Of a stretch of 64,000 nucleotides of DNA, positions 3,001 through 22,205 are shown piece after piece. The position numbers were made by a program, and so were the translations under genes. How positions within the stretch are numbered: position 1 is the stretch's first letter; every line of letters starts with the position of its first letter. Below the pieces are notes generated by a model. The model ran no database searches and had not been told where the DNA came from. It was given only the letters and a program-made list of their open reading frames with translations. Source of the DNA: Streptomyces sclerotialus (GTDB taxonomy: Bacteria > Actinomycetota > Actinomycetes > Streptomycetales > Streptomycetaceae); NCBI RefSeq assembly GCF_040907265.1, contig NZ_JBFOHP010000002.1, positions 7,068,001 to 7,132,000 of the forward strand, read 5' to 3'.

Positions 3001-3122
3001 GTGCTCCCTCTCTGCTCAAGCCCTACAACGACGCCCTGGAGGACGTCGAGGCGTGGGAGACCCTGTGGTCCCTCCGCGACGTCGACGCCGAGTCCGCCCT
3101 GTTCATGGAGGCATCCCGATGA
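1..3122 (+). CDS. drmA: DISARM-type helicase DrmA (5' end outside window)
   Basis: Large superfamily 2 helicase-like protein of the DISARM anti-phage system. Visible helicase signatures, numbered from the ATG at 15: Walker A PTGGGKT near residue 418, a DELH box near 621, a STAT motif soon after, and a C-terminal QATSRVGR arginine-finger motif. A CPWC...RCPGTGC zinc-ribbon-like stretch sits between the helicase halves. The frame stays open upstream of the first ATG (T-R-Y-P precedes it), and 1035 residues is short for DrmA, so the true N-terminus probably lies before the window. The stop overlaps the drmB start as ATGA, showing translational coupling. Family assignment rests on motif order plus the DUF1998 partner. 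Which DISARM class this is cannot be settled here, because the upstream genes are not visible. Confidence 0.85.
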   Translation, partial: TRYPMGVLFPRPTDAEADLRLKEDAAEEEGLDEEPVTGADSLDESGSAAERPNAGDRRPSSVGLTFAVDLAVCREIVVSARAAVYEPEDAEGRKISARRSEARTTSDQRERWRRVELDLPDTTVDVTYPGRGASRDLIDGTARLEVHVRRPSPETGTVTVTVTLVNVQKVGERELQDAFALFQTGLTVRAANASSAFVERPGALSAVDSELETSRLLHRHAPTFAAGHGCAAVWDWTPPPVGITDIERAGVAEVRTEFMPTHEVLLTDSNPEIDDRALTMSGLAEGSDSEVIAALEGLATGYERWIERKRDEAAALAGTSYEKAAFVQVDSCVEALDRIREGIALLRDKPDLMQAFRLANQAMATQRARSAWVKGGRVGEPDLASARWRPFQIAFVLLCLAGVDDPEHRDRGVSDLLWFPTGGGKTEAYLGLIALTTFLRRMRLGGAGGGVTVLMRYTLRLLTLQQFERAAILICAMERMRRQNPAELGHEEISLGMWVGRSATPNTLEVASRQLRAARSGKVLQKENPVQLHACPWCGTALDAHHYTVDEQAVRMDVRCPGTGCAFSDGLPVHLVDETVYRARPTLVIATVDKFASMPWRAQTAALFNRDRQDATPPPELIVQDELHLISGPLGTLTGLYETAVDLLADRPKVIASTATIRRAADQGKALFSREVRQFPPAGLDSRDSWFAVETPARDKASRRYVGLLAPGTSQSTLLIRTYATLLHQAMRADTTQEVRDAYWTLVGYFNSLRLLSAAELQVHDDVVAHLDHLAARDDCEPRSVGNYSELTSRVDASDIPARLKQIERRLPGGDVVDVLLATNMIAVGVDVDRLGLMAVMGQPQTTAEYIQATSRVGRAHPGLVAVMLNASRSRDRSHYENFQHFHSALYREVESTSVTPFSARARDRGLHAVIVALARILIPAARADEAAGNIDLFKDELRERIRPKILERVEKVSPVETAAKEVSHVAAAFDEFVDWWYEEAEAHGGLYYEPKRGRSAPSLLKPYNDALEDVEAWETLWSLRDVDAESALFMEASR

Positions 3123-4985
3123 CCCCGCCCCCTCCCCGCCGCCGGCGCGGCAGCGGCGGATCCGCCGCACCGGCCCGCACCCTGCCCCGCCGCGGTGCGG
3201 TCCGCCGCGCCCAGGCCATCACCACGTACGGTGTGGGTTCGTTGATCGCTGTGGAGCAGGAGTCGTTCATCGTCTCCGGCATCGACGACGCCGAGGGGCA
3301 GTGGCCCCGCGACGAAGCCCCGGTGATCCACGAGCCGCGCCTCGCCCGGGTGTTGGGCGTGCGCCGGTTCCGTCTGCCGCCCGCCTCCGCCGAGGACAGC
3401 CGTGACGGCATCCGGGTGCGTCGCTTCCCGCTGTGGCACCACTGCCCCGAATGCCACGCGCTGGACCACGTGCGGAGGTTCAACTCCCCGCCTGGACGCA
3501 ACGAGTGCGCCGAGTGCTCCGAAACCCTGGTGCCCTCCCGATTCGTGGTGGCTTGCGAGGACGGGCACATCGCCGACTTCCCGTACTGGAAGTGGCTGCA
3601 CAGGGGGCGACGCGGCGACGGCGAGGCCGGTTTCTGCGGCGGCCGGATGAGTCTGCGTTCCTCGGGACGTACCTCCTCGCTCCGGTCGGTGGTGCTCTCC
3701 TGCTCCTGCGGAGTGCCGGAGGTGTCCATGGAGGGTTCCTTCCGGCGCGGTGCCCTCAAGGACCTGAACATCCGCTGCGAGGGCAAGCGCCCCTGGCTGA
3801 AGGACGCCCCCCGACCTCCTCTGCTCCCAGCCGCCCCGGACCCTGCAGCGTGGTTCTTCCTCGGTGTGGCAGCCGGTGCTCCGCTCGGCCCTGTCCATCC
3901 CGCCGTGGAGCGACACCCGGGTGCACGCTCTGGAGAAGCATTGGGACAAGCTCCGTTCGTGCTCCACCCTCGCCGAGATCGAGATCCACCTGAAGTACAT
4001 CTTCGAGGGCTCACCGTGTCCGGTGAGCCCTGAGCAGGTGATGGAACTGCTTGCCGCGATGGAGGCCGAGGAGCTCACCGGAGAGGACGGGCCCGTTCTC
4101 GACCAGGAACAGCGTTACCGCGCCCTGCGCGACCTGGAGTACGAGCGGCTGTGCGCGGGCAACCCGGAGGACTCCGGCCACCACACCGAGCAGTTCGTCT
4201 GCGAGCCCCCGACCGACGACGGGAAGCCGTTGTCCGGCCTGGGACTGGTCACCCCGATGCTGGTGAAGAAGCTCCGCGAGGTCCGCGCTCTCAAGGCCTT
4301 CACCCGGGTCATCGACCCCGAGACCTCCTCCGAGGGCCATGAGGCGGATCTTTCCCTCGTCCCTACGGACTGGCTGCCCGCCATGGAGGTCCATGGCGAA
4401 GGAGTCTTCCTCCGGCTCGACGAGGACAGGGTCGACGCCTGGGCCGAACTGCCCGCCGTTGCCGCTCGCGTGGAACGCATCCGTCACCGGCACCAGCGGG
4501 TCCTCGCCGAGCGGGCCGCCGACCCGACCCGAGTCCCGTCCTCTCCCGCCACCCCGCGCATGGCCCTGCTGCACACCTTCGCGCACGTGATGATCAATGA
4601 GTGGAGCCTGGACTCCGGTTACCCGGCCGCCTCGCTCCGTGAGCGGATCTACTCGGGTGACGAGATGGCCGGCGTGCTGATCTACACGGCCACCAGTGAC
4701 TCGGCCGGCAGCCTCGGCGGCCTGGTCACCCAGGGAGAAAGCGTCCGCCTCGCCCAGGCCGTGCGCTCGGCCGTCCACCGCGCCGAGTGGTGCTCCGCCG
4801 ACCCGCTCTGCGTCGAGACCGACAGCTCCGGCGCGGGCGGCACCAACCTGGCCGCCTGCCACGCCTGCGTGATGCTCCCGGAGACCAGCTGTGAGCACAA
4901 CAACGGCCTGCTCGACCGGGCCCTTCTCGTCGGCACCCCGGAGGATCCGTCGATCGGTTTCTTCTCCCACCTGCTCACCCGGTGA
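3119..4985 (+). pseudogene. drmB: DrmB (DUF1998) interrupted by a +1 frameshift
   Basis: DrmB-family DUF1998 protein, the usual partner of DrmA. The first part starts at ATG 3119 and carries the N-terminal motif AITTYGVGSLI and Cys pairs (HCPEC, NECAEC) followed by a CEDGHIADFPY segment. The frame is lost at a run of six C (3807-3812) and reading continues to an unrelated stop at 4033. The rest of the family protein, with a C-terminal CxxC-rich end (ACHACVMLPETSCEHNN), continues one frame over to 4985. Removing one C gives a continuous protein of about 621 residues with plausible sequence across the join (DAPDLLCSQPPRTLQRG). This is either a true frameshift mutation or a homopolymer sequencing error. 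The downstream half could start alone at GTG 3864, but that position has no ribosome site. Confidence 0.85.
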
Positions 4986-5165: not shown

Positions 5166-6158
5166 TCATGCCCGGTGGCCCAGGGCGGCCCGGATCGCGC
5201 ATCCGAGGGCCCGGCCCACCGGGGGTGGCGAGGCGTGGCCCACCTGCCGATAGCGGGCTGTCTTACGGCCGGCGAAGGACCAGTCCGCAGGAAAGCCCTG
5301 CAGCCTTGCCGCTTGCTCGACGGTGAGCGCCACCATGCCCTTGACGCCGAGCGAGAGGTCCCAAGGGAACTCAGGGCCGGGGAGCTCATCGGCGACGGTG
5401 CCGCCGTTCACACGCATACGGGCCCAGGAACGCTTCGACCCGGTCGGCCCCAGATCGGCCCCGCCGCGATTCCAGGAACCGCCGACCAGTGTCGGGGCGG
5501 GCTGGTCGGCCTGCGCGGCCCAGGCGTCCGCGTACGGCCAGCCGCGTGCGGCCATGGAGGAACGTAGCGCCGCGCCCACGGTGATCGGCGGCTTGGTGTC
5601 GGGCACGGGGGCGACGAAGTTCTCGATGAGATCTCCCTTGAAAGCCACCAGGACCCCTTGTTTGCGGTCCTGGGGCACACCGTGGTCCATGGCGTTGAGG
5701 ACGAACCAACGATGCCGATAGCCGAGGTGCTCGAGCTCGGTGGTGACGTAGGCGCGGATCGGTTCGTACGCGGGCTTGGAGACCAGGTCGGGGACGTTCT
5801 CGATGAGCAGGGCGCGGGGCTGTACGCCGTGCATGAGCATGATCGTCGCTTCGAGTACTCGAATCTCCTCGGCGCTGTCCTCGCGTGCCACCGCGGCGCT
5901 CGCCTTGACCCTGGGTAAGCCGGCAGCCAGGAGATCCACGTCATATGTCTCCTGGTGGTCCACCGGGTCGAAGTCCAGGAGGTCGGTTTCGACGACATTC
6001 CACTTCGGACGGTTCAGACGCAGCGTCTCGCAAGCCGCGGCCCGGTTGTCCAGGAGCAGAACAGGATCGAATCCGGCCTGTTCGAGGCCGAGCGCGAGGC
6101 CGCCTGCGCCGGCACACACGGCAAGGGAGCTGAGGTTTCCGAGGCGAGACTCTTCCAT
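5166..6158 (-). CDS. DNA cytosine-5 methyltransferase homologue lacking the motif IV Cys
   Basis: 330-residue homologue of C5-cytosine DNA methyltransferases. It shows an AdoMet motif I (CAGAGGLALGLEQAGF, residues 15-30), motif VI (IENVPDLV, near 119-126), motif VIII-like PQDRKQG, and a C-terminal ARLQGFP block followed by a QVGHASPPPVGRALG end. At motif IV, where the family has PC with the catalytic cysteine, this protein reads GLPRVKAS, with Arg83 in the Cys position. Convergent to drmA-drmB, so it may be the DISARM modification component (DrmMII is a 5mC enzyme) or a derivative. Without the Cys, normal catalysis is not expected. It may be non-catalytic or use an unconventional nucleophile. 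The start is taken at ATG 6158 and has only a weak ribosome site. Confidence 0.75.
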   Translation of the reverse strand: MEESRLGNLSSLAVCAGAGGLALGLEQAGFDPVLLLDNRAAACETLRLNRPKWNVVETDLLDFDPVDHQETYDVDLLAAGLPRVKASAAVAREDSAEEIRVLEATIMLMHGVQPRALLIENVPDLVSKPAYEPIRAYVTTELEHLGYRHRWFVLNAMDHGVPQDRKQGVLVAFKGDLIENFVAPVPDTKPPITVGAALRSSMAARGWPYADAWAAQADQPAPTLVGGSWNRGGADLGPTGSKRSWARMRVNGGTVADELPGPEFPWDLSLGVKGMVALTVEQAARLQGFPADWSFAGRKTARYRQVGHASPPPVGRALGCAIRAALGHRA

Positions 6159-9688: not shown

Positions 9689-11317
9689 ATGCCTGCCGAG
9701 GCAGCCGCATCCCAGACCACCCCCACAACCCCCCGCGAAGACCAGGGAAGTTCGCCGGAGCCTGCCTTCCGTACGTACGTCGAGGACAACCTCGACGCGC
9801 TCGCGGCCGACCCCGGCCGTGAACTCCTCGTGCACGGCGACCGGCGGCTGACCGCGGGTCAGTTCTGTGACCTCGTACACCGCATGGCGCACGCCATGGC
9901 GGCACAGGGCGTCGAGCGCGGCACCACCGTCACGCTGCTCAGCGGCAACCTCCCCGAGGCCATCGCCGCGCGCTACGCCGCCAACCTGGTGGGCTGCCGC
10001 GTCAACCACCTCTACAACAAGCTGTCGGCGGACGTGCAGGCCAACATCGTGCGGGACGTCGAGACCCGGGCGCTGATCGTCGACCCGCGGCTGACCGACC
10101 GCGCCGCCGAGCTGACCGAGCGCGCGCCCGTGCCGACCGTACTCACCCTCGGCGAGGCCAAGCGGGAGATCGGCCAGGACGTGCTGGCGCTCGCCGCCGA
10201 GCAGACCGCCGAACCGTTCGTGAGCCCCGCGCAGCCGGACGACATCTGCACCATCCGGCACACCGGCGGCACCACCGGCCACCCCAAGGGCATCGTCACC
10301 ACGTTCCGGCAGCTCAACCGCATGCGCCGGATGATGCCCGAGCAGACCGAGCAGGACTACACGCCCAAGCAGCTGGTGTGCACCACCATCGCGCACGCCG
10401 CCGGCATGCTGGCCGACGTGATGTTCCTCAACGGCGGCACCGTCGTGCTGCACGACGACTTCGACGCCGCCGAGGCCCTCGCCACCATCGAGCGCGAGCG
10501 CATCACCCACCTCTTCCTGCTGCCGCCGCTGGTCTACCAGCTGATGGACCACCCGGACTCCGAGCGCCGCGACCTCTCCAGCCTGCGCGCCCTGACCTAC
10601 GGCGGCTGCCAGTCCTCGCCCGCCCGGATCGCGGACGCGGTACGCCGCTTCGGCAAGGTGCTCGTGCAGTTCTACGGCCAGAACGAGGCCGGCGGCATCA
10701 GCGTGCTGCCCGCCGAGGAGCACGACCCGGACAACCTGGAGCGGCTGCGCTCGGCCGGGAAGATCCTGCCCGGCGTCGAGGTGGCCATCCGCGACACCGA
10801 CGGCAACGACCTGCCGACGGGCGAGCTGGGCGAGATCTGCGTCCGCTCGGCCGGCACGATGACCGGTTACTGGAAGCAGCCCGAGCTGACCGCCGAGGTG
10901 CTGCGGGACGGCTGGCTGCACACCGGTGACGTGGGCTTCGTCGACGCCGACGACTACATCACCGTCGTCGACCGGATCAAGGACATGATCGTGGTCGTCG
11001 GCGGCCACGTCTACACCACCGAGCTGGAGGACCTGCTCAACTCGCAGCCGAAGGTGCAGCAGAGCGCGGTCTTCGGCGTCCGTGACGCGGACAACATGGA
11101 GCAGGTGTACGCCGCGGTCGTGGCGGCGCCGGACAGCCGGCTGGAGGCCGAGGAGCTGCGCGCCTGGGTGCGCGAGGCGCGCGGTGCCATGTACGAACCG
11201 GCTCACATCAGCTTCGTCGACGCGCTGCCGCTGACGGACGCGGGCAAGCCGGACAAGAAGCTGCTCCGGCAGCTGGCCGAGCAGGAGCGCGACGCCGCGC
11301 AGGCCGGCGCGAGCTGA
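9689..11317 (+). CDS. AMP-forming acyl-CoA synthetase/ligase
   Basis: 542-residue ANL-superfamily enzyme that activates a carboxylic acid through an acyl-adenylate to its CoA thioester. Visible motifs: P-loop A3 HTGGTTGHPKG (about residue 190), A5-like YGQNEAGG, A7 GWLHTGDVG, A8 DRIKDMIVVVGGHVYTTELED and a C-terminal Lys in LPLTDAGKPDKK. It resembles medium or long fatty acid and aromatic acid ligases; the substrate is not determined. Start ATG 9689 with CAGGAGG 9675-9681; the frame is open upstream but has no ribosome site. A dyad operator precedes it. Convergent with lutC, with a shared terminator. Confidence 0.88.
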   Translation: MPAEAAASQTTPTTPREDQGSSPEPAFRTYVEDNLDALAADPGRELLVHGDRRLTAGQFCDLVHRMAHAMAAQGVERGTTVTLLSGNLPEAIAARYAANLVGCRVNHLYNKLSADVQANIVRDVETRALIVDPRLTDRAAELTERAPVPTVLTLGEAKREIGQDVLALAAEQTAEPFVSPAQPDDICTIRHTGGTTGHPKGIVTTFRQLNRMRRMMPEQTEQDYTPKQLVCTTIAHAAGMLADVMFLNGGTVVLHDDFDAAEALATIERERITHLFLLPPLVYQLMDHPDSERRDLSSLRALTYGGCQSSPARIADAVRRFGKVLVQFYGQNEAGGISVLPAEEHDPDNLERLRSAGKILPGVEVAIRDTDGNDLPTGELGEICVRSAGTMTGYWKQPELTAEVLRDGWLHTGDVGFVDADDYITVVDRIKDMIVVVGGHVYTTELEDLLNSQPKVQQSAVFGVRDADNMEQVYAAVVAAPDSRLEAEELRAWVREARGAMYEPAHISFVDALPLTDAGKPDKKLLRQLAEQERDAAQAGAS

Positions 11318-11384: not shown

Positions 11385-11885
11385 TCATGCGTCCGGGTAC
11401 ACCGCCACCCGTACCGCCCGCGGCCCGTGCATGCCCTGGATCATCGCCGACTCGATGTCCCCGGAGCGGCTGGGGCCGGTGACCAGCTGGAGGCCGGACG
11501 GCATGGGGTCGAGCCGGCCGAGCGCCGCGATCAGCGCCGCGTAGTCGGCGTGCAGGCGCGACAGCGGTACGACCGCGAGATGGGTGCCGGGCAGTACGGC
11601 CGTGCCGCGCGGGCGTCCCGGCGCCGGGCCGAGCGCGAGGGTGCCGGTGTCCGCCGCGGCTCCGAGCACCCCGGTGACGCCGACCTCGGCGTCCCACGGG
11701 TCCCGCGGCCGCTCCCCGGCGACCGCCAGGCCCGTCAGGTCCGGGTGGTCGTCGACGAGCGCCGGGCGGTCGCCCGCCCAGTCCCGGACCAGCGACAGCG
11801 CCTCCTCGCGCGAGGCGGCGAGCTCCGCCAGCCCGCCGGCCTCCGCCAGCCGGTCCCGGAACAGCTCCGCCAGCTCCTGGTTCAT
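11385..11885 (-). CDS. lutC: LutC-like LUD-domain protein
   Basis: 166-residue LUD-domain (DUF162) protein, the smallest subunit of the LutABC-type L-lactate oxidation complex. It carries the family ADTGTLALG motif and the C-terminal GPSRSGDIESAMIQGMHGP signature. The start ATG 11885 overlaps the lutB stop (ATGA), and it is the last gene of lutA-lutB-lutC. The complex oxidises lactate or a related 2-hydroxyacid at the membrane/cytosol and passes electrons through Fe-S clusters. Confidence 0.88.
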   Translation of the reverse strand: MNQELAELFRDRLAEAGGLAELAASREEALSLVRDWAGDRPALVDDHPDLTGLAVAGERPRDPWDAEVGVTGVLGAAADTGTLALGPAPGRPRGTAVLPGTHLAVVPLSRLHADYAALIAALGRLDPMPSGLQLVTGPSRSGDIESAMIQGMHGPRAVRVAVYPDA

Positions 11886-13420
11886 CCCTGCCTCCTGTCG
11901 CGGTCCCGGCTCTCCTCCTGACGCCGGAACCACCTGCGGAAGGCGCCCGCCTCGCGCAGGGGCGGCAGGGCACGCCCCCTCGCCCAGCCCCGGCCGGGTC
12001 CCGGCAGCCGGGCCAGGACGCCGTCCGGGAGCAGCCGGCCCGCGAGCCGGGCCCCGGCCATCGTGGCGCGGAAGCCGGTCTCCGTACGCCAGGCCAGCGC
12101 CCAGGCGCGCCAGCCGGCGCGGGCCGTCCGGGCGGCGGGCTGCCGGCGTTCGTGCGCGGCGCGCAGGTTCACCAGCAGGTCGGGAATGGGGATCTTGACG
12201 GGGCAGGCGTCGTAGCAGGCGCCGCAGAGGGAGGAGAGGAACGGCAGGTCGGAGTCCTGGTTCGGCCGCTCGCCGAGCAGTGGGCTGAGGACGGCGCCGA
12301 TCGGGCCGCCATACACCGCGCTGTAGGGGTGGCCGCCGCCCACCGTCCGGTACACCGGGCAGGAGATCTGGCAGTTGCCGCAGCGGATGCAGGCGAGGAC
12401 CTCTTCCTGGGGCGTACCGAGCGCCTTCGTGCGGCCGTTGTCGAGGATGACGAGGTGCAGCTGCTCGGGGCCGTCGGTCTCGCCCTCCCGGCGCGGCCCG
12501 TTGAGGAGCGTCTGGTAGACGGAGACGCGTTGTTTGGTGGCCGCGTCGCACAGCAGCGGGATCAGGACGCCGAGGTCGGCGAAGCGCGGGATCACCTTCT
12601 CGACGGTCATCACGGCGACGTGGACGCGTGGTTGCGAGGTCACCATGTCGGCGTTGCCCTCGTTGGTGACGAGGGCGAGGGTGCCGGTGTCGGCGGCGGC
12701 GAAGTTGACGCCGCTGATGCCCATGTCGGCGGCCTTGAAGTCGGCGCGCAGCCGGGTACGCGCGAACGACGCCAGGTCCTCCGGCTCGCCTGACACCTCG
12801 TCACCGGCGAGCTGCCCGAACAGATCCGCCACGTCCTGCCGGGACTTGTGCAGCGCGGGTCCGACGATGTGGCTGGGCCGTTCGTCGGCCAGCTGGACGA
12901 TGTACTCGCCCAGGTCCGTCTCGACCACTTCGATGCCCTGTGCGGTGAGGTGGGCGTTGAGATGGATCTCCTCGGTGGCCATCGACTTGGACTTCACCGC
13001 GAGGCGTACGCCGTTCTCGCGGGCGATCCGCTCGATGACGGCGCGTGCTTCGGCGGGGGTGGCGGCCCGGTGCACGACGCCGCCGTTCCGCTCGACGTTC
13101 CCGGTCAGCTGCGCGAGGTACTTCTCCAGGTCGGGAAGGGTCTCCCGGCGGATCGCCGCGCCCTGTTCGCGGAGCCGCGCCACCTCCGGGGTCCAGGTGC
13201 CGACGTGCCGTTCCTCGTTCAGTGCCGCGAGGCGGTCGTGGGTGGGGCGGGCCGTGCGGACGGTGAGCGCGTCCCGGGTGATCAGGGGCAGCGGGCGCCG
13301 GTGCGGCGGGATGTCGCCGGCCGCCCACTCGGGCCGGTCGGGGTGGAGGCGCTCGCGGCCGGCGAGGGCGGAGGAGCGCTGCCCGGCCGTGCGGGTGCCG
13401 TCCCGGCGGTGCTCGCTCAT
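11882..13420 (-). CDS. lutB: LutB-like LUD/iron-sulfur protein
   Basis: 512-residue lactate-utilisation iron-sulfur subunit. The N-terminal LUD domain includes KSKSMATEEIHLN (about 143-155) and AADTGTLALVTNEGN (about 242-256). Two 4Fe-4S motifs follow: CIRCGNCQISC (344-354) and CGACYDAC (399-406) followed by PVKIPIP. The C-terminal 90 residues are basic and poorly conserved, as in other actinobacterial LutB. It overlaps lutA by 4 bp and lutC by 4 bp, so the three are co-translated. Role: electron transfer during 2-hydroxyacid (L-lactate) oxidation. Confidence 0.92.
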   Translation of the reverse strand: MSEHRRDGTRTAGQRSSALAGRERLHPDRPEWAAGDIPPHRRPLPLITRDALTVRTARPTHDRLAALNEERHVGTWTPEVARLREQGAAIRRETLPDLEKYLAQLTGNVERNGGVVHRAATPAEARAVIERIARENGVRLAVKSKSMATEEIHLNAHLTAQGIEVVETDLGEYIVQLADERPSHIVGPALHKSRQDVADLFGQLAGDEVSGEPEDLASFARTRLRADFKAADMGISGVNFAAADTGTLALVTNEGNADMVTSQPRVHVAVMTVEKVIPRFADLGVLIPLLCDAATKQRVSVYQTLLNGPRREGETDGPEQLHLVILDNGRTKALGTPQEEVLACIRCGNCQISCPVYRTVGGGHPYSAVYGGPIGAVLSPLLGERPNQDSDLPFLSSLCGACYDACPVKIPIPDLLVNLRAAHERRQPAARTARAGWRAWALAWRTETGFRATMAGARLAGRLLPDGVLARLPGPGRGWARGRALPPLREAGAFRRWFRRQEESRDRDRRQG

Positions 13421-14184
13421 GCGGGCACCTCCGCCGGGACGAGCGCGTCGCGTACCAGCTCGGCGAGGTGGCGGGTGCGGACCGGCGGCCCGGCCTGCCG
13501 CGCCCGGCCGCCGAGATGGAGCAGGCAGCCGGGGTCGGCGGCGACCAGCCAGTCGGCGCCGCCGGCCGCTGCCGTACCGAGCTTGGTGTCGGCCATCGCC
13601 ACCGACACGTCGGGGAACTTCGCGGCGAAGGTGCCGCCGAAGCCGCAGCAGGTGTCGCAGCCCGCCATCTCGCGCACCTCCAGACCCTCGATTCTGCCGA
13701 GGAGTTGGCGTGGCGTGCGGCGCTCGCCGAGCGTGCGGGCCATATGGCAGGAGTCGTGGTACGTGACCGAGCCGCGCAGCCGGAGCCGCAGTCCGCTGCC
13801 GTACGCCATGACGAACTGGCTGAACTCATAGGTGCGTTCGACGAGCGCGCGGTGCTCCGGGGCGGGCGCACGGAGCCGGCCGAGGTGGTGGTGGAGGTAG
13901 GCGGCGCAGGAGCCGGAAGGGGTGACCACCGCGTCGTACGGTGCGAAGATCCGCAGCCAGCGGTCGAGCAGTGTCCCGGCCTCCGCCGGGTGCCCGGAAT
14001 TCAGTGCGGGCTGGCCGCAGCAGGTCTGGCCGCGCGGCAGCTCCACCGTGACGCCCATCGCCGCCAGGACCTCCACCGTGGCGCGTGCCGGGCCGCCCGC
14101 GGCCAGATCGGCCATGCACGAGGTGAACAGCGCGACCCGCGCCGGGCGGGGCGGCGCTCCCGCGTCCGTTTCCACGTCCCTCAT
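13417..14184 (-). CDS. lutA: LutA-like CCG-domain protein
   Basis: 255-residue protein with two cysteine-rich CCG domains, as in LutA/GlcF/heterodisulfide reductase subunit B. Visible motifs: TCCGQPALNSG, SCHMARTLGERRTP and CDTCCGFGGTFAAKFP. First gene of lutABC. The start is ATG 14184 with GGAGGAG six bases upstream; a longer form from 14226 would skip this ribosome site. It follows the iclR-type gene on the same strand by about 60 bp, so the regulator and lut genes could share a transcript. Confidence 0.9.
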   Translation of the reverse strand: MRDVETDAGAPPRPARVALFTSCMADLAAGGPARATVEVLAAMGVTVELPRGQTCCGQPALNSGHPAEAGTLLDRWLRIFAPYDAVVTPSGSCAAYLHHHLGRLRAPAPEHRALVERTYEFSQFVMAYGSGLRLRLRGSVTYHDSCHMARTLGERRTPRQLLGRIEGLEVREMAGCDTCCGFGGTFAAKFPDVSVAMADTKLGTAAAGGADWLVAADPGCLLHLGGRARQAGPPVRTRHLAELVRDALVPAEVPA

Positions 14185-14244
14185 CCGACTCCTCCAGCTG
14201 TGTCCGCTTCCGTCGTACGACTCCACCGGGCCGGTCCCGGGCGG

Positions 14245-15045
14245 TCAGGCCATCACCGACTCCACCCGCCGCGCCGTGTCCCGTACCGCGTCCGCCAGCG
14301 CCAGCACCTCGTCGTGGCCGATGACGAAGGTGACGGTGGAGACGCTGACCGCGCCGACCGTGCGGCCGTCCGGGGTGTGGACGGGCGCGGCGAGGCAGCG
14401 CACGTTGGGTTCGTTCTCCTCGTCGTCCAGGGCGTAGCCCCGTTCCCGTACACCGGCGAGTTCGGCGGCGAGCGCGTCGAGGGTGGTGAGGGTGCGCTCC
14501 GTACGCCGCTCCAGGCCGGTGCGGGCCACCAGCTCGGCCAGCGCTTCCGCGTCGAGACCGGCGAGGATGCACTTGCCGATGGCGGTGGAGTGCAGGGGCT
14601 GCTGCATCCCGACGCGGGAGAGCATCGCGAACGGCTGCACGCCCTCGACCTTGTGGGTGTAGACCACCCGGTCGCCGCTGCGTAGACCCATGTGGAGGGT
14701 CTGGCCGATCTGCGCCTGGAGCTCGACGAGGACCGCCTCGACCGTGGTGTGCCGGCGGCCCTGGCTCACCGCGGCGCCGACACCGCTGGCGGTCGGGCCG
14801 ATGCCGTACCTCCCGCCGGGGTACGCCACCGCCCAGCCCTCGGCGACCAGGGTGCCCAGCAGCCGGTGGGCCGTGGGCTTGGAGACGGCCGCCTCCGCCG
14901 CCAGCTCGGCCAGCCGGAGGGGCTCCTGCGCGTGGCAGAGCACCTCGATGAGCCGCAGCACCTTGCGGGGCCCCGCGCCGTCGTTGGGCTTACCGGAACG
15001 CGTCCTCGCAGAACTTGCCGACGTCCGTGCAGAACTCGTTGACAC
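14245..15045 (-). CDS. IclR-family transcriptional regulator
   Basis: 266-residue IclR protein. The N-terminal winged HTH (about residues 28-90, KVLRLIEVLCHAQEPLRLAELAAEA) is followed by an effector-binding domain ending near 262 (AVSVSTVTFVIGHDEVLALAD). GTG start at 15045, with no strong ribosome site. Placed before lutABC and divergent from an MFS carrier, it probably controls both in response to the imported acid. A 17-bp imperfect palindrome in the shared promoter region is a likely binding site. Confidence 0.88.
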   Translation of the reverse strand: MSTSSARTSASSARTRSGKPNDGAGPRKVLRLIEVLCHAQEPLRLAELAAEAAVSKPTAHRLLGTLVAEGWAVAYPGGRYGIGPTASGVGAAVSQGRRHTTVEAVLVELQAQIGQTLHMGLRSGDRVVYTHKVEGVQPFAMLSRVGMQQPLHSTAIGKCILAGLDAEALAELVARTGLERRTERTLTTLDALAAELAGVRERGYALDDEENEPNVRCLAAPVHTPDGRTVGAVSVSTVTFVIGHDEVLALADAVRDTARRVESVMA

Positions 15046-15096
15046 GTCTTCGAGGCTAGGGCTAGCTTCCCCCGATATTCCACCCCCCTGAACGAC

Positions 15097-15113
15097 GTTT
15101 CGCCAGGCGGAAC
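15097..15113. promoter_or_regulatory. IclR-type operator candidate
   Basis: GTTTCGCCAGGCGGAAC is a 17-bp palindrome with one mismatched pair around a central A. It is located 52 bp from the iclR start and 45 bp from the MFS start. GTT...AAC arms are typical of IclR-family sites. Binding is inferred from position. Confidence 0.6.
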
Positions 15114-15157
15114 GGGCGGAACGCCCTGGACCATTCGTGCCGACGTCAGGAGAATCC

Positions 15158-16603
15158 GTGCCGACTCAGGCGGAGATACGGCAGTTGTCCGACCGCGCAG
15201 CACAGCACGTCCTCAGCAAACAGGGCACCGACACGGGGCGGCGTACCGGCTGGCTGATGATCTCGACCATCCTGATCGAGGCCTGGGACCTCTACGCGAT
15301 CTCGTTCCTGCTGCTGTTCGTCAAGAACGACCTGCATCCCAGCGCCGCCATGCTCGGACTCGCCTCCGGCGCCGTGCAGTTGGGGGCGCTGATCGGCGCG
15401 CTGGGCGGTGGCTGGGTCGCCGACCGGATCGGCCGGCGCAAGGTCTTCATCATCACCATGGCCCTGTTCGTGGTGCTCGCGCTGAGCCAGTCCTTCGTGA
15501 CCAGCATGTGGCAGCTGGTCCTGGTCCGGTTCCTGCTCGGCATCCCGCTGGGCAGCGACATCTCCACCGGCTACGCGTACATCATGGAGACCATGCCCAA
15601 GGGCAAGCGGGAGGTGATGGGGAACCGCTGGCAGGGCATGTTCGGGCTCGGTGAGATCGCCGCCATCGCCGTGATCACCGTGATGTACCTCAGCGGCATG
15701 GACCACGGCCTGCTGTGGCGGATCGGCCTCGGCCTCGGCGCGCTGCCCGCGCTCGCGCTGCTCATCGGGCGGCTGGACGTGCCGGACACCGCGCTGTGGC
15801 TGGTGCAGCGCGGCAAGTTCAAGCAGGCCAAGGCCGTCGCGAAGAAGATGTTCAACGACGACCTGGACATGCTGCCGGACGAGGACTACGTCATCGAGCG
15901 GCCGCGCACCCGCGACTTCCTGTCGAGCATCTGGCAGGACCCGGTACGCCGCAAGGCCAGCGTCTTCGCCTGGATCTCCAACGCCATGCAGGGCGCGGAG
16001 TTCGCCGCCTTCGCCTTCTACCTGCCGGTCATCCTCGTCCTCACCGGGGTGTCCGGCATCGGCGCCACCAACTTCGTGACCGGCGCGATCTACATCATCG
16101 CCACCGTCAGCGGCTTCGTGGCGCCGATGGTGACACCGAAGCTGGGCCATCGCGGCGTGGCACGCTGGGGCTTCGGCACGGCCTTCGTCTCGCTCCTGCT
16201 CGCCGCGCTCTTCCTGCAGCTGGAGTGGCACGTCCTGGTGCCGCTGGCCGCCGCCGGCCTGATGTGGGGCCACTACTGGGACGCCTCGAACGGCATGACG
16301 ATCGCCTCGATGGTCGCACCGAGCCGCTACAAGGCCACCGCCTCCGGCTTCGGTTACATCTTCGTCAAGCTCGCCGCCTTCGTGACCATCTTCTTCTTCC
16401 CGATCCTCTTCACCGAGCTGGGCGTGCCGCTGGCGACGGTCATCGTCTCGCTGCTCTCGCTGACCGGGTACCTCGCCGCCACCTACATCCTCCCCGAGGT
16501 CTACGGCTACGTGGAGCAGGAGGAGAGCCCCGCCGGACCGGCCGGCGGCCCATCGGCCCCCGGACGTACGGCACTTCGGGATTCCGGCGAGCCCGCCGCG
16601 TGA
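15158..16603 (+). CDS. MFS metabolite transporter
   Basis: About 482 residues with 12 predicted membrane segments. The MFS loop 2-3 motif GGGWVADRIGRRKVF lies near residue 90, a central DTALWLVQRGKFKQAK linker follows TM6, and a hydrophilic C-tail is present. It resembles sugar/metabolite:proton symporters that carry small organic acids. GTG start at 15158 with TCAGGAG upstream. Divergent from iclR-lutABC, so it is a candidate uptake carrier for the acid oxidised by LutABC. This is inference from context only. Confidence 0.85.
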   Translation: MPTQAEIRQLSDRAAQHVLSKQGTDTGRRTGWLMISTILIEAWDLYAISFLLLFVKNDLHPSAAMLGLASGAVQLGALIGALGGGWVADRIGRRKVFIITMALFVVLALSQSFVTSMWQLVLVRFLLGIPLGSDISTGYAYIMETMPKGKREVMGNRWQGMFGLGEIAAIAVITVMYLSGMDHGLLWRIGLGLGALPALALLIGRLDVPDTALWLVQRGKFKQAKAVAKKMFNDDLDMLPDEDYVIERPRTRDFLSSIWQDPVRRKASVFAWISNAMQGAEFAAFAFYLPVILVLTGVSGIGATNFVTGAIYIIATVSGFVAPMVTPKLGHRGVARWGFGTAFVSLLLAALFLQLEWHVLVPLAAAGLMWGHYWDASNGMTIASMVAPSRYKATASGFGYIFVKLAAFVTIFFFPILFTELGVPLATVIVSLLSLTGYLAATYILPEVYGYVEQEESPAGPAGGPSAPGRTALRDSGEPAA

Positions 16604-16929
16604 CGGCGGCGCGCACGACGGCGGACGTGCCCGGCAACGGGAAGGTGCACAACAGATGAACGTTCGGGTCCGGCGCTCAGGGTGCTGAGCGATCTCCGCA
16701 CCGCGGGTGCCGGACACCGGGAATTCGATGGACGAATCGGCCGCACAGGCCGCCAGTTCATGCCGATGCGCCCGAATATGCACAGGTCAGTGCCCTGGGG
16801 TCGGGTGAGCGGCAGTGCGAGGCGCATGTAATCGTGGGCACAGGGACGGTCCTGGTCACCGTCACCCCCCTCTCCTGCGACCCCCTCACAGGGGTCTTGT
16901 TGACATGCACCGCGAAGAAAGGTGATGGC
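16604..16929. other. Intergenic region, 326 bp
   Basis: Lies between the MFS carrier and the YceI gene. The only structured item is a possible 10-codon ORF, ATG 16656 to TGA 16688 (MNVRVRRSGC), with a distant GGGAAGG upstream. A TTGACA hexamer occurs at 16898-16903 but without a matching -10. No RNA gene is seen. Confidence 0.4.
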
Positions 16930-17841
16930 ATGCCCATCGCACTGCTCCGGAGGAAGCGGGCCGCCCGTGGCCCGCGCGGAGCCGGACTCCTGCATCCCGT
17001 CCCCCCGGGTGCGGGAGCCTTCAACTGTGAGGTGCTCGACCCCCTCGGGGAGCCGCTGCCCCAGGCCGAGGTCGTCGTGACCTCGGCCCACGGCGGGCAG
17101 GTGGTGGCGAAGCTGACGACGGACCCGTACGGTCTGTTCTTCGTGACGCTGCCCGTCGGCCGGTACAGCGTCCTGGTCTCCGCCGACGGGCTGCAGCCGA
17201 ACCGGCAGACCATCGACGTCAGGGAAGGCGAGACCCTGCCGCTGTCCACGATCCGGCTGGAGTCCTCCGCGCCGCCCGAGCTGCCCCAGCCCGGCACATG
17301 GCTCTTCGACCCGCCGCACACCGCGATCCGCTTCATCGCCAAGCACGTCGGCATGGCCAACGTGCACGGCCGGTTCACCCGCTTCCAGGGCGGCATCCGG
17401 GTCGCCCCGGACATGGCCGACTCGCGCATCGAGGTACGCATCGAGGCGGCGAGCATCAACACCGGCAACAACACCCGGGACAACCACCTGCGCTCGGCGG
17501 ACTTCCTGGACGTCGAGAACTACCCGTACCTGCACTTCGCCTCCACCCGCTTCGTGCACAAGGGCGGCCAGAAGTGGATCGTGCAGGGCGTCCTGGAGAT
17601 GCACGGCGTCAGCCGCACCGTCAACCTGGACACCAACTACCTGGGCGCCGTCAACGGCGGCTACGGCGAGGAACTGCGCTGCGCCGCCCTGGCCAAGACC
17701 GAGCTGCACCGTGAGGACTACACCCTCAACTGGCGCAACATGCTCGCCCGCGGCATCGCCATCGTCGGCCCCACGGTGAAGCTGGAACTCGACATGCAGG
17801 CCATGTACCGCTGCGAGGACACCCCGACCCCGCCGGACTAG
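16930..17841 (+). CDS. YceI-family protein with N-terminal carboxypeptidase-regulatory-like domain
   Basis: 303-residue fusion. Residues about 30-105 form a CarboxypepD_reg-like beta-sandwich (FNCEVLDPLGEPLPQAEVVV... GRYSVLVSADGLQPNRQTI). Residues about 120-300 form a YceI lipocalin-like domain (GTWLFDPPHTAIRFIAKHVG... NNTRDNHLRSADFLDVENYP... MLARGIAIVGPTVKLELD). YceI folds bind isoprenoid-type lipids. No clear signal peptide. Start ATG 16930 with GAAAGG upstream. Ends at a strong hairpin. Confidence 0.85.
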   Translation: MPIALLRRKRAARGPRGAGLLHPVPPGAGAFNCEVLDPLGEPLPQAEVVVTSAHGGQVVAKLTTDPYGLFFVTLPVGRYSVLVSADGLQPNRQTIDVREGETLPLSTIRLESSAPPELPQPGTWLFDPPHTAIRFIAKHVGMANVHGRFTRFQGGIRVAPDMADSRIEVRIEAASINTGNNTRDNHLRSADFLDVENYPYLHFASTRFVHKGGQKWIVQGVLEMHGVSRTVNLDTNYLGAVNGGYGEELRCAALAKTELHREDYTLNWRNMLARGIAIVGPTVKLELDMQAMYRCEDTPTPPD

Positions 17842-17852
17842 GCCTGTCCTGG

Positions 17853-17894
17853 CCCCGCTGCCGCAGCTGCCCCGCCGGGACTGCGGCAGCGGGG
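17853..17894. terminator. Terminator hairpin after the YceI gene
   Basis: Perfect 14-bp stem CCCCGCTGCCGCAG / CTGCGGCAGCGGGG with a 14-nt loop, starting 11 bases after the stop codon. Confidence 0.8.
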
Positions 17895-17951
17895 GCCGGT
17901 GGAACCACCCGGAGCCCGAGCGGACATCATGACCGGCAAGGGGGTGGTGTC

Positions 17952-18875
17952 GTGCGGCAACAGGTGCACGGGGCGCGGCCGGGCGGCGGGCGCGACACAG
18001 CGGGGAAGTGGCCGGCGGTGCTGGTCGCGGCGGTGGTGCTGTACCTGGCGTGCGTACTGGCCCTGGAAGCCGCTGGGCTGTGGGAGGTGACGCAGGAGTC
18101 GGTGGAGCGGCCCGACAGCCTCCTGTGGTTGCCGATACTGGCGCCTGTAGGGGCACTGTGCGGCGCACCGGTCTTCTTCGCAGCCGTGGGAGCGTTCGTC
18201 CTGCCGACGCTCGCGCTGGCCCGCCGGGCGGGGCGGGACTGGTGGTGGGTACCGGTCGTCGCGGCCCTCGTGGCGCTGGTGGCCGCGCTCGCGACGGCCG
18301 CTCTCGGCGCGGGCCGTGCCACCGTCCTGTGGCTGTGGCCGCTGCTGTGGGTGTCGGTCGGCGGAGCGGCGCTGCTCGCCCGGTGTGTCACGCTGCGCAC
18401 CCCCTCCGGAGCGCGTCCGGGTCTGCTGGTTTCCAAGGTGGCCGGTTGCGGGGTCCTGGCCGTCGTGGTCGTCCACGCGCTGGGCGCGGCGGCGGTACGG
18501 ACCGGGTCGATCGACGCCTACCGCCCACCGCGTCTGTCGCCGGCCCACATGACCGGCGCGTGGAGCGACGGCCGCGGCGGTACGCTCCGGCTCGCCGGTG
18601 ACGGCACGGCAGCCGCCGACCGCTTGCTGTCCGAGGACTTCGATCACGCATTCGGTGACGTGCGCTGTGACGGCTCGGGCACCTGGACTCACGAGCCGGC
18701 CGACGACCCCTGGGACCAGACCGTCACGATCGACATCGGCGGCTGTTCGGGCTCGGAGTGGCGCATCAGCGGCACGCGGGCCCGGCCGAAGCTGGCCTAC
18801 CAGTACGGGGACCCGGACAAGCCGCGGTGGTACACGCTGACCCGGACGCGGGGTGCCGCGGGCGCGGGCGGGTAG
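17952..18875 (+). CDS. Hypothetical membrane protein
   Basis: 307-residue protein of unknown family. Four hydrophobic segments lie at about residues 20-42, 58-85, 96-118 and 124-142, and a fifth near 160-180. A hydrophilic C-terminal domain of about 120 residues follows (MTGAWSDGRGGTLRLAGDGTA... WYTLTR), resembling small extracytoplasmic beta-rich modules found in Streptomyces membrane proteins. GTG start 17952 with a weak GGGTGG upstream. It lies 56 bp before larA on the same strand, but nothing links it to lactate metabolism. Confidence 0.65.
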   Translation: MRQQVHGARPGGGRDTAGKWPAVLVAAVVLYLACVLALEAAGLWEVTQESVERPDSLLWLPILAPVGALCGAPVFFAAVGAFVLPTLALARRAGRDWWWVPVVAALVALVAALATAALGAGRATVLWLWPLLWVSVGGAALLARCVTLRTPSGARPGLLVSKVAGCGVLAVVVVHALGAAAVRTGSIDAYRPPRLSPAHMTGAWSDGRGGTLRLAGDGTAAADRLLSEDFDHAFGDVRCDGSGTWTHEPADDPWDQTVTIDIGGCSGSEWRISGTRARPKLAYQYGDPDKPRWYTLTRTRGAAGAGG

Positions 18876-18931
18876 CGGAATCGGATGCGGGCCCCTTGCG
18901 GGCCGGGGGTGGGCTCGGAGATCGTTCCGGC

Positions 18932-20245
18932 ATGAGGGTGAACGGGTATCCGGAGGACGGGGCGCGGGGTGAGGGGACGGCGTCCGGCGCCGCCCGCATC
19001 GGAGGGGCCGGTACGGTGCTCACCGATGCGCAGGTGACGGAGTTCGTCTCCGGGCAGCTGGCCGGGGCCGACGTGGACGGGCGCAGTGTCTGTGTCGTCG
19101 TGCCCGACGGGACGCGCAGCTGTCCGCTGCCGCTGCTGCTGTCCGCCGTGCACGGTGCGCTCGCCGGGCGGGTGAGCCGGCTGACCGTACTGATCGCGCT
19201 CGGCACCCACGCCGCCATGGACGAGCCGCGGCTGGCCCGGCACCTGGGCTACCCGGAGGGCGAGCTCGCGGCGCGGTACCCGGGCATGACCGTGCGGAAC
19301 CACGAGTGGTGGGACCCGGACACCTTCGTCTCGCTCGGCACGATCTCCGCCGACCGGGTCGGCGAGCTGTCCGGCGGGCTGCTGCACCATGCCGTGGACG
19401 TCCGCCTGAACCGCGCCGTCGTCGACCACGACGTCACCCTCGTGCTCGGTCCCGTCTTCCCGCACGAGGTCGTCGGCTTCTCCGGCGGCAACAAATACTT
19501 CTTCCCCGGTGTCGCGGGCGCGGACATCATCGACCTCTCGCACTGGCTGGGCGCCCTGATCAGCAGTGCGGAGATCATCGGCACCCGCGGCAGCACGCCC
19601 GTACGCGCACTCATCGACGAGGCCGCGGCCCTCATCCCCGGCCGCCGCCTCGCCCTCTGCGTCGTCGCGCAGTCGGGGACGGACGCGCTGCACTCCGTCG
19701 CGTACGGCACACCGGAGGACGCCTGGGCCGCGGCGGCCGAGGTGTCCGCCGAGACCCATGTGCGCTACCTGGACGCGCCCGTGCGGCGCGTCCTGTCGGT
19801 CATGCCGGAGAAGTACGAGGACATCTGGACCGCCGCCAAGGGCTTCTACAAGCTGGAACCGGTGGTCGCGGACGGCGGCGAGGTCATCCTCTACGCGCCG
19901 CACATCACGCAGCTCTCCGCGATGCACCCGGAGATCGCCGATATCGGATACCACTGCCGGGACTACTTCACCAAGCAGTGGGACCGGTTCCGGCACCTGC
20001 ACTGGGGCGTGCTGGCCCACTCCACGCACCTGCGCGGCGCGGGCACGTACGACGCGGAGACCGGCGAGGAGCGCTGCCGGGTCACGGTCACGCTCGCCAC
20101 CGGCATCCCGGAGGACGTCGTACGCGCCGCGAACCTCGACCACCTCGACCCGGCCGGCATCGACCCCGCCGCCTTCGCCGCGGACCCGGACACCCTGGTC
20201 GTGCCGCACGCGGGCGAGATCCTGCACCGGCTGCGCACGAAATGA
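18932..20245 (+). CDS. larA: LarA-type nickel-pincer racemase
   Basis: 437-residue homologue of lactate racemase LarA, which uses the nickel pincer nucleotide (NPN) to racemise 2-hydroxyacids. Positions matching the known active site are present: His93 (GTHAAM), His178 (PHEVVGFSGG), Lys188 (GGNKYFFPG, the Lys that binds NPN covalently) and His204 (LSHW). Start ATG 18932. It is followed after 10 bp by larE and then larB, the cofactor-synthesis genes, so a functional NPN enzyme is likely. The LarA family also includes racemases or epimerases of other hydroxyacids, so lactate is the default substrate but not proven. Confidence 0.9.
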   Translation: MRVNGYPEDGARGEGTASGAARIGGAGTVLTDAQVTEFVSGQLAGADVDGRSVCVVVPDGTRSCPLPLLLSAVHGALAGRVSRLTVLIALGTHAAMDEPRLARHLGYPEGELAARYPGMTVRNHEWWDPDTFVSLGTISADRVGELSGGLLHHAVDVRLNRAVVDHDVTLVLGPVFPHEVVGFSGGNKYFFPGVAGADIIDLSHWLGALISSAEIIGTRGSTPVRALIDEAAALIPGRRLALCVVAQSGTDALHSVAYGTPEDAWAAAAEVSAETHVRYLDAPVRRVLSVMPEKYEDIWTAAKGFYKLEPVVADGGEVILYAPHITQLSAMHPEIADIGYHCRDYFTKQWDRFRHLHWGVLAHSTHLRGAGTYDAETGEERCRVTVTLATGIPEDVVRAANLDHLDPAGIDPAAFAADPDTLVVPHAGEILHRLRTK

Positions 20246-20255
20246 GGAGCCGCAC

Positions 20256-21131
20256 ATGACATCCGACCGGCTTCCGCAGCTCACGGGCGCCGACGCCGAA
20301 GCGGCCGACGCGGTGGCCGCGCTGCTGCGCGGCACCGCGCCCCTGGGCATCGCCTTCTCCGGCGGCGTCGACTCCTCGCTGCTGCTGGCCCTCGCCGTAC
20401 GGGCGCTCGGCGCCGGACAGGTCCTCGCGGTCCTCGGCGTTTCGCCCAGCCTCGCCGCCGACGAACGCGCCGGGGCCCACCGGGTGGCCGCCCACATCGG
20501 CGCCCGGGTCGTCGAAGTCGCCACGTACGAAGGGGAGTCGGCGGCCTACCGCGCCAACGGGCCGGACCGCTGCTTCCACTGCAAGGACGAGCTGTTCACC
20601 AGGATCTCGGACGAGGTCGCCGCCGAGCACGGCCTCGTGGCCGTCGCGTACGGGGAGAACGCGGACGACGCCCGCCGCCCGGACCGGCCCGGCAGCCGCG
20701 CCGCCACCGAACACCGCGTGCTGCGGCCGCTCGCCGACGCGGGCCTGGACAAGGCCGCCGTACGCCGCCTCGCCCGCGCCCTCCGGCTGCCCTGTGCCGA
20801 CAAGCCGGCCGCGCCCTGCCTGGCCTCCCGCATCCCGCACTTCGACGAGGTCTCGCCCGCCAAGCTCGGCCAGGTCGAACGGGCCGAGAAGGCGCTGCGG
20901 GGGCTGGGCTTCAGCGACTGCCGGGTGCGGCACCACGGGGAGGTGGCACGCGTCGAACTGCCGGTCGCGGAGATCGCCCGCGCCGCCTCCGGCGAGCTGC
21001 GTGAGGCGGTGCTGAGCGCCGTGCGCGCGGCCGGCTTCCGCATGGTCGCGGTCGATCTGGCGGGCATCCAGTCGGGCGCGTTCACCCTGCCCCTGGTCGG
21101 CGTGACGGAGGGCCATGACCACCATGCGTGA
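20256..21131 (+). CDS. larE: LarE, ATP-dependent sacrificial sulfur transferase
   Basis: 291-residue PP-loop ATP pyrophosphatase that donates sulfur to the pyridinium ring during NPN cofactor synthesis. PP-loop SGGVDSS at residues 35-41. Cys188 in PCLASRIP corresponds to the sacrificial Cys of Lactobacillus LarE. Also CFHC at 106-109. Start ATG 20256, preceded by GAGGAG. Overlaps the larB start region. Confidence 0.92.
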   Translation: MTSDRLPQLTGADAEAADAVAALLRGTAPLGIAFSGGVDSSLLLALAVRALGAGQVLAVLGVSPSLAADERAGAHRVAAHIGARVVEVATYEGESAAYRANGPDRCFHCKDELFTRISDEVAAEHGLVAVAYGENADDARRPDRPGSRAATEHRVLRPLADAGLDKAAVRRLARALRLPCADKPAAPCLASRIPHFDEVSPAKLGQVERAEKALRGLGFSDCRVRHHGEVARVELPVAEIARAASGELREAVLSAVRAAGFRMVAVDLAGIQSGAFTLPLVGVTEGHDHHA

Positions 21132-21852
21132 GGGCACACCGGACCCCGCTGACGCCATGCTCGCCGGCCTCGCCGAGCTGGACCACGACCGCGCCGCGCG
21201 GCGCGGGTACCCCGAGGCCGTCTACTGCGAGGGCAAGACGGCGGCCCAGGTCGGTGCCATCGCCGCCGCGGTACGCGAGCGGTACGCCGAGCCCGGGGAC
21301 GCGGCATCCCGCGTTCCGGCCACCCTCTTCACCCGGGCGGACGACGGACACGCCAAGGCGGTGCTGGCCGAACTCCCCGACGCACGCCACGACACGGAGG
21401 CCCGCCTGCTCGCCTGGCCGCCGGCGCCGCCGCCCGCGACCGGCGGCAAGGTGACCGTGGTCTGCGCCGGCACCTCCGACCTGCCCGTGGCCCGGGAAGC
21501 CCTGCTCACCGCCGGCTACCTCGGCCGGGAGACCGAGTTCGTCGCGGACGTGGGCGTCGCCGGGCTGCACCGCGTCCTCGGCAAGCTCGACCTGCTGCGC
21601 TCCGCGCGGGCCGTGGTCGTCGTCGCGGGCATGGACGGCGCGCTGCCCAGCGTCGTGGCCGGGCTGGTCGCGGCGCCGGTCGTCGCCGTGCCGACCTCCG
21701 TCGGGTACGGCGCCGCCTTCGGCGGCCTCGCCCCGCTGCTGGCCATGCTCAACGCCTGCGCTCCGGGCGTCGCGGTGGTCAACATCGACAACGGCTACGG
21801 CGCGGGCCACCTGGCGGCCCAGATCGCCGCCCCGTTCCCGGCCGGGCCCTGA
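21115..21852 (+). CDS. larB: LarB, pyridinium-3,5-biscarboxylic acid mononucleotide synthase
   Basis: 242-245 residues. LarB carboxylates and hydrolyses nicotinic acid adenine dinucleotide, the first step of NPN synthesis. The C-terminal half is a PurE-like AIR-carboxylase fold with CAGTSDLPVAREA, VVVVAGMDGALPSVVAGL and TSVGYGAAFGG. The start may be ATG 21115 (2 bp after GGAGGG) or ATG 21124, which is better spaced. Either overlaps larE, giving coupled translation. Confidence 0.9.
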   Translation: MTTMREGTPDPADAMLAGLAELDHDRAARRGYPEAVYCEGKTAAQVGAIAAAVRERYAEPGDAASRVPATLFTRADDGHAKAVLAELPDARHDTEARLLAWPPAPPPATGGKVTVVCAGTSDLPVAREALLTAGYLGRETEFVADVGVAGLHRVLGKLDLLRSARAVVVVAGMDGALPSVVAGLVAAPVVAVPTSVGYGAAFGGLAPLLAMLNACAPGVAVVNIDNGYGAGHLAAQIAAPFPAGP

Positions 21853-21859
21853 CGACTCC

Positions 21860-22171
21860 CTACGCCGACCGGGCAGGGCTCCGGCCTGGGCGGGTACCGC
21901 CGGGTACGCACTCCCGCAGCCGGGCCCGCGCAGCCTCACATCCGGGATCTGCGTACGTCGACCTCACAGCCGGCGCGAACGGGTCGAAGCCGTGCTCGGC
22001 CGGCCGGCGAACCCCCAGCAGGCTTCGCAACGACCACCACGCGCGGATCACGCCGAGGCCGGCGTCGGTGCGCGCCTGATCGGCGTCCGCCTTCAGGAAC
22101 ACGTCGCCGACGCGCGGGGCCGGGCGTGCGAAGCGGGCGACGACGACCTCGGCCTCATCCATGGCGACCAC
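21860..22171 (-). pseudogene. Internally deleted aminoglycoside-phosphotransferase-like remnant
   Basis: About 100 codons. The first 36 residues (EAEVVVARFARPAPRVGDVFLKADADQ...) resemble the N-terminal lobe of actinobacterial aminoglycoside/choline kinase-type phosphotransferases. The following part (VIRAWWSLRSLLGVRR...EHGFDPFAP) resembles their extreme C-terminus. The ATP/Mg catalytic core between them (HGD, IDxxD) is missing. I read this as a decayed gene with a large in-frame internal deletion. It sits between convergent larB and larC. ATG at 22162 or GTG at 22171. The family link is from memory of such proteins and should be tested by search. Confidence 0.45.
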
Positions 22172-22175
22172 TTCC

Positions 22176-22205
22176 GTCAGGAGTCCTGTTGTGTCAGGAG
22201 TCCTG
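22176..22205. repeat. Direct repeat of a CAGGAGTCCTG dyad
   Basis: GTCAGGAGTCCTG occurs at 22176-22188 and again at 22193-22205, spaced by 17 bp. Each copy contains the palindrome CAGGA-G-TCCTG. The second copy includes the larC stop codon. Possibly a duplication or a regulatory/terminating element. Confidence 0.6.

Follow-up and report, generated by a model that had tools for sequence, protein, structure and literature searches.

M1, a methyltransferase homologue lacking two catalytic residues

The stretch of Streptomyces sclerotialus DNA analysed here (64,000 nucleotides, called the window) begins within a defence island. As listed in Table 1, a drmA-like helicase gene and a drmB-like gene lie beside a gene that is convergent with drmB and encodes a C5-cytosine methyltransferase homologue, designated M1. 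It was found that the drmB frame changes near 3.8 kb in this genome, and a single open frame is present in 8/8 window-type islands of relatives; the break is either a real frameshift or an assembly error. After the island, genes at positions 11385-23435 resemble, by eye, genes for lactate utilisation (Lut) and for lactate racemase and its nickel cofactor (Lar).

Table 1. Coordinates of the island features and of the partner gene (window positions unless a locus is named)
Feature	Position	Strand	Basis
drmA-like helicase, 1087 aa	1..3122 (start at window -141)	+	PADLOC DrmA
drmB-like gene in two frames; MZB/DUF1998 part 3864-4985	3119..4985	+	PADLOC DrmB
M1, C5-cytosine methyltransferase homologue without the catalytic Cys, 330 aa	5166..6158	-	ORF, homologues and model
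M1 target-recognition region, residues ~205-262 (bounds estimated), the subfamily's most conserved stretch	5373..5546	-	Conservation
Gln167 codon, site of the second Arg in motif VIII (QxRxR)	5658..5660	-	Translation and DNMT1 alignment
Arg83 codon, site of the motif IV nucleophilic Cys (GLPRVKAS)	5910..5912	-	Translation and DNMT1 alignment
M2, PF00145 protein with GGPPCQ, EQV and QTRRR	L082:2988-4358 (L082 is G000:C2:7052001-7068000)	+	

M1 matches PF00145 with an E value of 7.7e-39. It has motif I (CAGAGG) and motif VI (ENV), and its motif VIII reads QDRKQ, in which the first Arg is kept and the second is replaced by Gln167. In a profile alignment of M1 with DNMT1, Arg83 shares a column with the nucleophilic Cys, as does position 167 with the second QxRxR Arg. 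Thus, of the residues that mark an active C5-methyltransferase, motif I and the motif VI Glu are present, and the motif IV Cys and the full pair of motif VIII Arg residues are absent. The first-pass annotation had described a methyltransferase homologue with Arg83 for the motif IV Cys, with motifs I and VI, and with a QDR-like motif VIII. The ORF, the PF00145 match and the alignment confirm this description, to which the loss of the second motif VIII Arg, not stated there, has to be added.

The predicted structure of M1 (37 sequences) has a mean pLDDT of 91.5. The loop of residues 81-100, which carries Arg83, has a pLDDT of 65-70, the lowest certainty except for the N-terminus. The top solved matches in Foldseek were MET1/DNMT1, M.HaeIII and M.HhaI, and the matches include, by title, M.HhaI R165 mutants and M.HaeIII C71S bound to DNA. 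M1 shares with active C5-cytosine methyltransferases the fold, the SAM motifs, the motif VI Glu and the target-recognition region, but differs from them in lacking the Cys and the second motif VIII Arg.

Coupled loss in an Arg-type subfamily

Is Arg83 a peculiarity of this gene? Among the best 120 of 5758 M1 homologues (E <= 0.001), the Cys column holds Arg in 119 and Gln in one, and none (0/120) has Arg at aligned position 167. Since the Arg is conserved in homologues, a chance occurrence, a local mutation or a sequencing error is ruled out; the relatives do not all have PC at this position, and the real subfamily that had been proposed does exist. The two losses go together. In an alignment of 102 methyltransferases (80 GTDB loci plus the window's genome; five rows gapped at the Cys column; five matches shorter than 150 residues left out), the second motif VIII Arg is kept in 54/54 Cys-type rows and is missing from 40/40 Arg-type and 3/3 Ser-type rows. 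In a separate draw, an M1-family gene (E <= 1e-60) was found in 59/199 genomes of the window's genus. Besides the window's own locus, there were 52 Arg-type loci without the second Arg and six Cys-type loci with it (58 in total), so that Arg-type M1 occurs in 53/199 sampled genus genomes with the window's genome counted. When homologues were listed around one Cys-type relative, the Cys and the second Arg were present in all of the best 120 of 8000; these 120 carry general names only, with no characterised relative among them.

These results indicate that M1 is very probably a conserved protein without cytosine C5 methylation activity. Its status as a pseudoenzyme is well supported, and the idea of a dead modification enzyme, very probably no writer of 5mC, is borne out.

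The 91 Arg-type loci considered below correspond to 88 distinct ones, as M1 is identical in L006 and L103, in L014 and L119, and in L017 and L125. At L050 (7470-8500), M1 lies in two overlapping frames with an intact M2 adjoining; owing to this split, the locus was left unscored for the Cys-site residue in the genus and GTDB neighbourhood count.

Regions of M1 kept under selection

In the Arg-type rows, motif I persists, the motif III Asp is found in 90/93 and the motif VI Glu in 91/93. The target-recognition region has a mean majority of 0.76, the highest of five M1 regions. The majority residues of the Arg-type rows and seven Cys-type rows are common at 67% of this region and at 72% of the C-terminal region. 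Arg83 is in all Arg-type rows by the definition of the group; Ala88 is found in 93/93 and Arg92 in 92/93. Because of this near invariance, the Arg83 loop looks rebuilt rather than eroded.

Pairwise dN/dS ratios were calculated by the Nei-Gojobori method for pairs with a dS of 0.1-1.2, the pairs not being independent. The median was 0.31 for M1, with 976/976 pairs below 0.64 (92 loci), and 0.46 for M2 (845 pairs, 68 loci). The SAM-binding motifs and the target-recognition region of M1 are thus kept under purifying selection.

An active methyltransferase accompanies M1

Following the island outside the window revealed a second methyltransferase gene, M2, whose end lies 11.6 kb before the window start. 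M1 is therefore not without a working partner, which had been missed when the module was read from the window alone. Neighbourhoods were counted at 43 of the 80 GTDB loci (L002-L041, L050, L056 and L059), the window and the 58 genus loci; the other 37 GTDB loci are Cys-type or more distant. M2 with its three catalytic motifs was found at 90/91 Arg-type loci. It directly follows M1 on the same strand at 80/91, the frames often overlapping, and lies within the stretch but on the opposite strand at two further loci, the window's included. At eight loci (L003, L004, L005, L007, L008, L013, L039 and L102), M2 is at the far end of the island, 16.5-17 kb off on the same contig, and M1 adjoins drmB in six of these islands and DUF6339 in two. 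The sole Arg-type locus without M2 (L151) is broken by a contig end, and every Arg-type locus with a complete neighbourhood has M2. The Ser-type loci have M2 in 3/3. The Cys-type M1 genes of the genus sample have M2 in 2/6 and a Vsr gene in the stretch in 6/6. Seen from the other side, M2-family loci number 53 in 50/199 genomes, 44 paired with M1 and nine unpaired.

The M2 genes at Arg-type loci were sorted by regular expression, one case by eye, into about 68 of an EQV family and about 14 of an ENV family, and the same M1 clade goes with both. The M1 and M2 distances correlate at 0.44 over 70 EQV pairs, a value without a control. At ten checked of the 37 remaining GTDB loci, no PPCQ methyltransferase lies directly downstream; one of the ten (L045) has such a gene on the other strand, and three (L047, L048 and L052) carry two Cys-type genes each.

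Some other arrangements were observed. Two neighbouring Arg-type M1 genes lie at L028:9932-12053, and past them the opposite strand carries a single PPCQ methyltransferase gene. The genome of L005 has a second adjacent PF00145 pair away from the island (G003:C76:39909-41940). The window's genome has a third PF00145 match in two overlapping pieces of different frames (438 + 215 aa; G000:C2:1072104-1072665).

The island and known defence systems

The first-pass annotation had placed M1 next to DISARM genes. DISARM typically comprises DrmA, DrmB, a DrmM methyltransferase and DrmC (PMC9142583). In a PADLOC scan of nine island proteins, which leaves out the drmB N-terminal piece and an 84-aa ORF, two scored as DISARM, namely DrmA (E 3e-248) and DrmB (E 2.7e-55, C-terminal piece), and DrmD matched weakly (15.3 bits); neither DrmC nor DrmE was among the matches listed for the nine (best 25 for M1, M2 and UvrD). 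The island shares DrmA and DrmB homologues with DISARM, but among the proteins scanned a GHKL-helicase, UvrD and paraMORC module stands in place of DrmC, DrmMI and DrmMII. The DrmA and DrmB matches and the convergence with drmB hold, whereas membership in DISARM is rejected on the proteins scanned. DrmA and DrmB are not the defining context of M1 either, as one or the other is present within the fetched stretch at 19/91 Arg-type loci.

M1 itself is not DrmMII (7.8e-26), as its best PADLOC match is DruM2|DruM (PDLC00029, 8.6e-87); M2 best matches MTase_II (9.8e-81), with DrmMII at 8.8e-19. No DruE, DruF or DruG of Druantia type II was matched among the scanned proteins beside the DruM-like M1. 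Matches to MzaB, MzaC and MzaD occur in relatives, whereas the island of the window has no match to Mza; its proteins match two parts only, PDC-M33A and PDC-M33C, of the PADLOC candidate system PDC-M33. DUF6339 is joined to M1 in one open frame at 12 loci, and no M1-M2 fusion was seen. The predicted fold of DUF6339 has a pLDDT of 91.4, and its model had no match in the PDB better than E 1.5. Next to a Cys-type M1-M2 pair, a 653-aa ORF (L154:11804-13765) resembles, by eye, a MORC/GHKL ATPase.

As far as the accessible portions of PMC2292703 and PMC8011034 describe them, MORC/paraMORC neighbourhoods contain GHKL, helicase, Vsr and cytosine methylase genes. A GHKL ATPase, helicases, Vsr and a cytosine methylase are thus common to these restriction-modification islands and the M1 islands, but the constant second, dead methyltransferase of the M1 islands is not mentioned in those portions, and neither paper yielded a mention of inactivation or cysteine. 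A survey of DrmA/DrmB-type helicases names ARMADA, BRIGADE and TALON, with PglX-type methylases, not an M1-M2 pair, in the part available (PMC12458937). The portion of PMC12839542 seen concerns BREX and has no bearing on M1, and that of the paper on ScmA of Caulobacter (PMC12907096) gave no assignment of M1 specificity. No paper describing the M1 subfamily was recognised in a search that mostly did not extend to subscription journals, so it may already be in print. The set of neighbouring genes varies on a known theme; the conserved dead methyltransferase among them is apparently new.

Origin of the loss

A tree of 114 rows was made with the catalytic columns masked; it is of a quick kind, with row L045_11993 on a very long branch. 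The Arg and Ser types group in a single clade that arises from within the Cys enzymes. Outermost are Cys enzymes that have no M2 directly downstream or are distant and unchecked. Next inward are three Cys enzymes with M2 (L041, L154 and L155), and innermost the Ser rows, from three Streptosporangiaceae loci, are sister to the 89 Arg rows (support 96). A 62-row tree agrees. Since Cys enzymes with M2 branch outside the Ser/Arg clade, the pairing with M2 seems to predate the catalytic loss. The Ser and Arg types may come from one loss or two. At the Streptosporangiaceae loci (L033, L038 and L040, around 9990-10960), M1 has Ser for the Cys and ETT for ENV and is paired with an active M2.

Possible roles of M1

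As target recognition is kept while the chemistry is dead, M1 may read DNA. Loss of the Cys and the second Arg is predicted to leave it unable to form the covalent intermediate; it would still read the DNA sequence, M2 would write the methylation self-mark for the system, and M1 would act on the effector side. On this best explanation, which has about an even chance of being correct, the defence system is of the paraMORC kind with two methyltransferases, and M1 serves it as a sequence reader without catalysis. The effector side is favoured by M1 being fused to DUF6339, by its distance from M2 in window-type islands, and by its pairing with two M2 families. In M.HhaI, R165A raises DNA affinity fourfold and lowers the catalytic rate 10^5-fold (PMC4802922). 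Base flipping was also lost or impaired in studies of R165A and R202A (PMC4802922 for R165A), and thus methylation sensing by M1 at the level of the base is not assured. Two points may speak against a reader: M1 and M2 may differ in the sequence they recognise, and Arg in place of the Cys could hinder DNA binding.

Does M1 instead help M2? M1 and M2 would then form a heterodimer, M1 giving DNA binding or stability and M2 the chemistry, with no part for M1 in restriction. DNMT3L and METTL14 are eukaryotic pseudo-methyltransferases, in which a dead enzyme is kept beside an active one. M1 resembles them in this, but it is bacterial, lies in a defence island and is joined to DUF6339, and its complex with M2 is putative. 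The tandem same-strand order of most loci, often with overlapping frames, favours a helper, and fits it as well as a reader or better; Arg-type M1 is never without M2 at complete loci, whereas M2 can be unpaired. Against this, a single M1 clade has partners from two M2 families, the two genes sit at either end of the island in the window and in eight relatives, the fusions join M1 to DUF6339 and not to M2, and the distance correlation is modest. I infer that M1 is a reader rather than a DNMT3L-like helper, the latter being possible but doubtful.

It is unlikely that M1 is a guard or antagonist, which would shield sites and thereby make the pattern left by M2 hemimethylated, or would tune island expression, without any reading for restriction. 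The pairs that hold a Cys-type sister (L041, L154 and L155) hint that one site had two enzymes and that one of them later lost its activity, but nothing supports this role directly, and the DUF6339 fusion points to the protein complex. The first-pass suggestion of a subfamily with other chemistry found no positive support. A different catalytic activity, with DNA or RNA as substrate, Arg83 as a participant and SAM still in use, would account for the kept SAM-binding motifs and Glu120 and for the rebuilt loop with its nearly invariant Arg83, Ala88 and Arg92. However, Arg does not act as a nucleophile, the loss extends to the second motif VIII Arg, which holds the target base, the Ser-type sister clade lacks the Arg, and no precedent was met in the literature searched, all of which makes it very improbable. 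Hardly credible is a decaying relic without function: catalysis is lacking and the L050 frame is in two pieces, but the Arg type is widespread in the genus, all dN/dS pairs are low and the new residues are near-invariant. A putative role of M1 in DNA binding or self-recognition is the leading idea from the sequences compared.

Many actinobacterial genes annotated as DNA cytosine methyltransferase, such as those in over a quarter of the sampled genus genomes, would methylate nothing. The M1-M2 set is a recurrent two-methyltransferase module, putatively of defence, whose parts annotation now scatters over DISARM, Druantia, Mza and type II methylase. It offers a bacterial counterpart of the eukaryotic pseudo-methyltransferases in which Cys-type sisters survive in the same gene pair, and the conversion of a writer into a reader or helper thus becomes testable. 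M1 is kept intact in many actinobacteria, nearly always with a working sister, which suggests that these bacteria may use it to read DNA, not to mark it, for defence.
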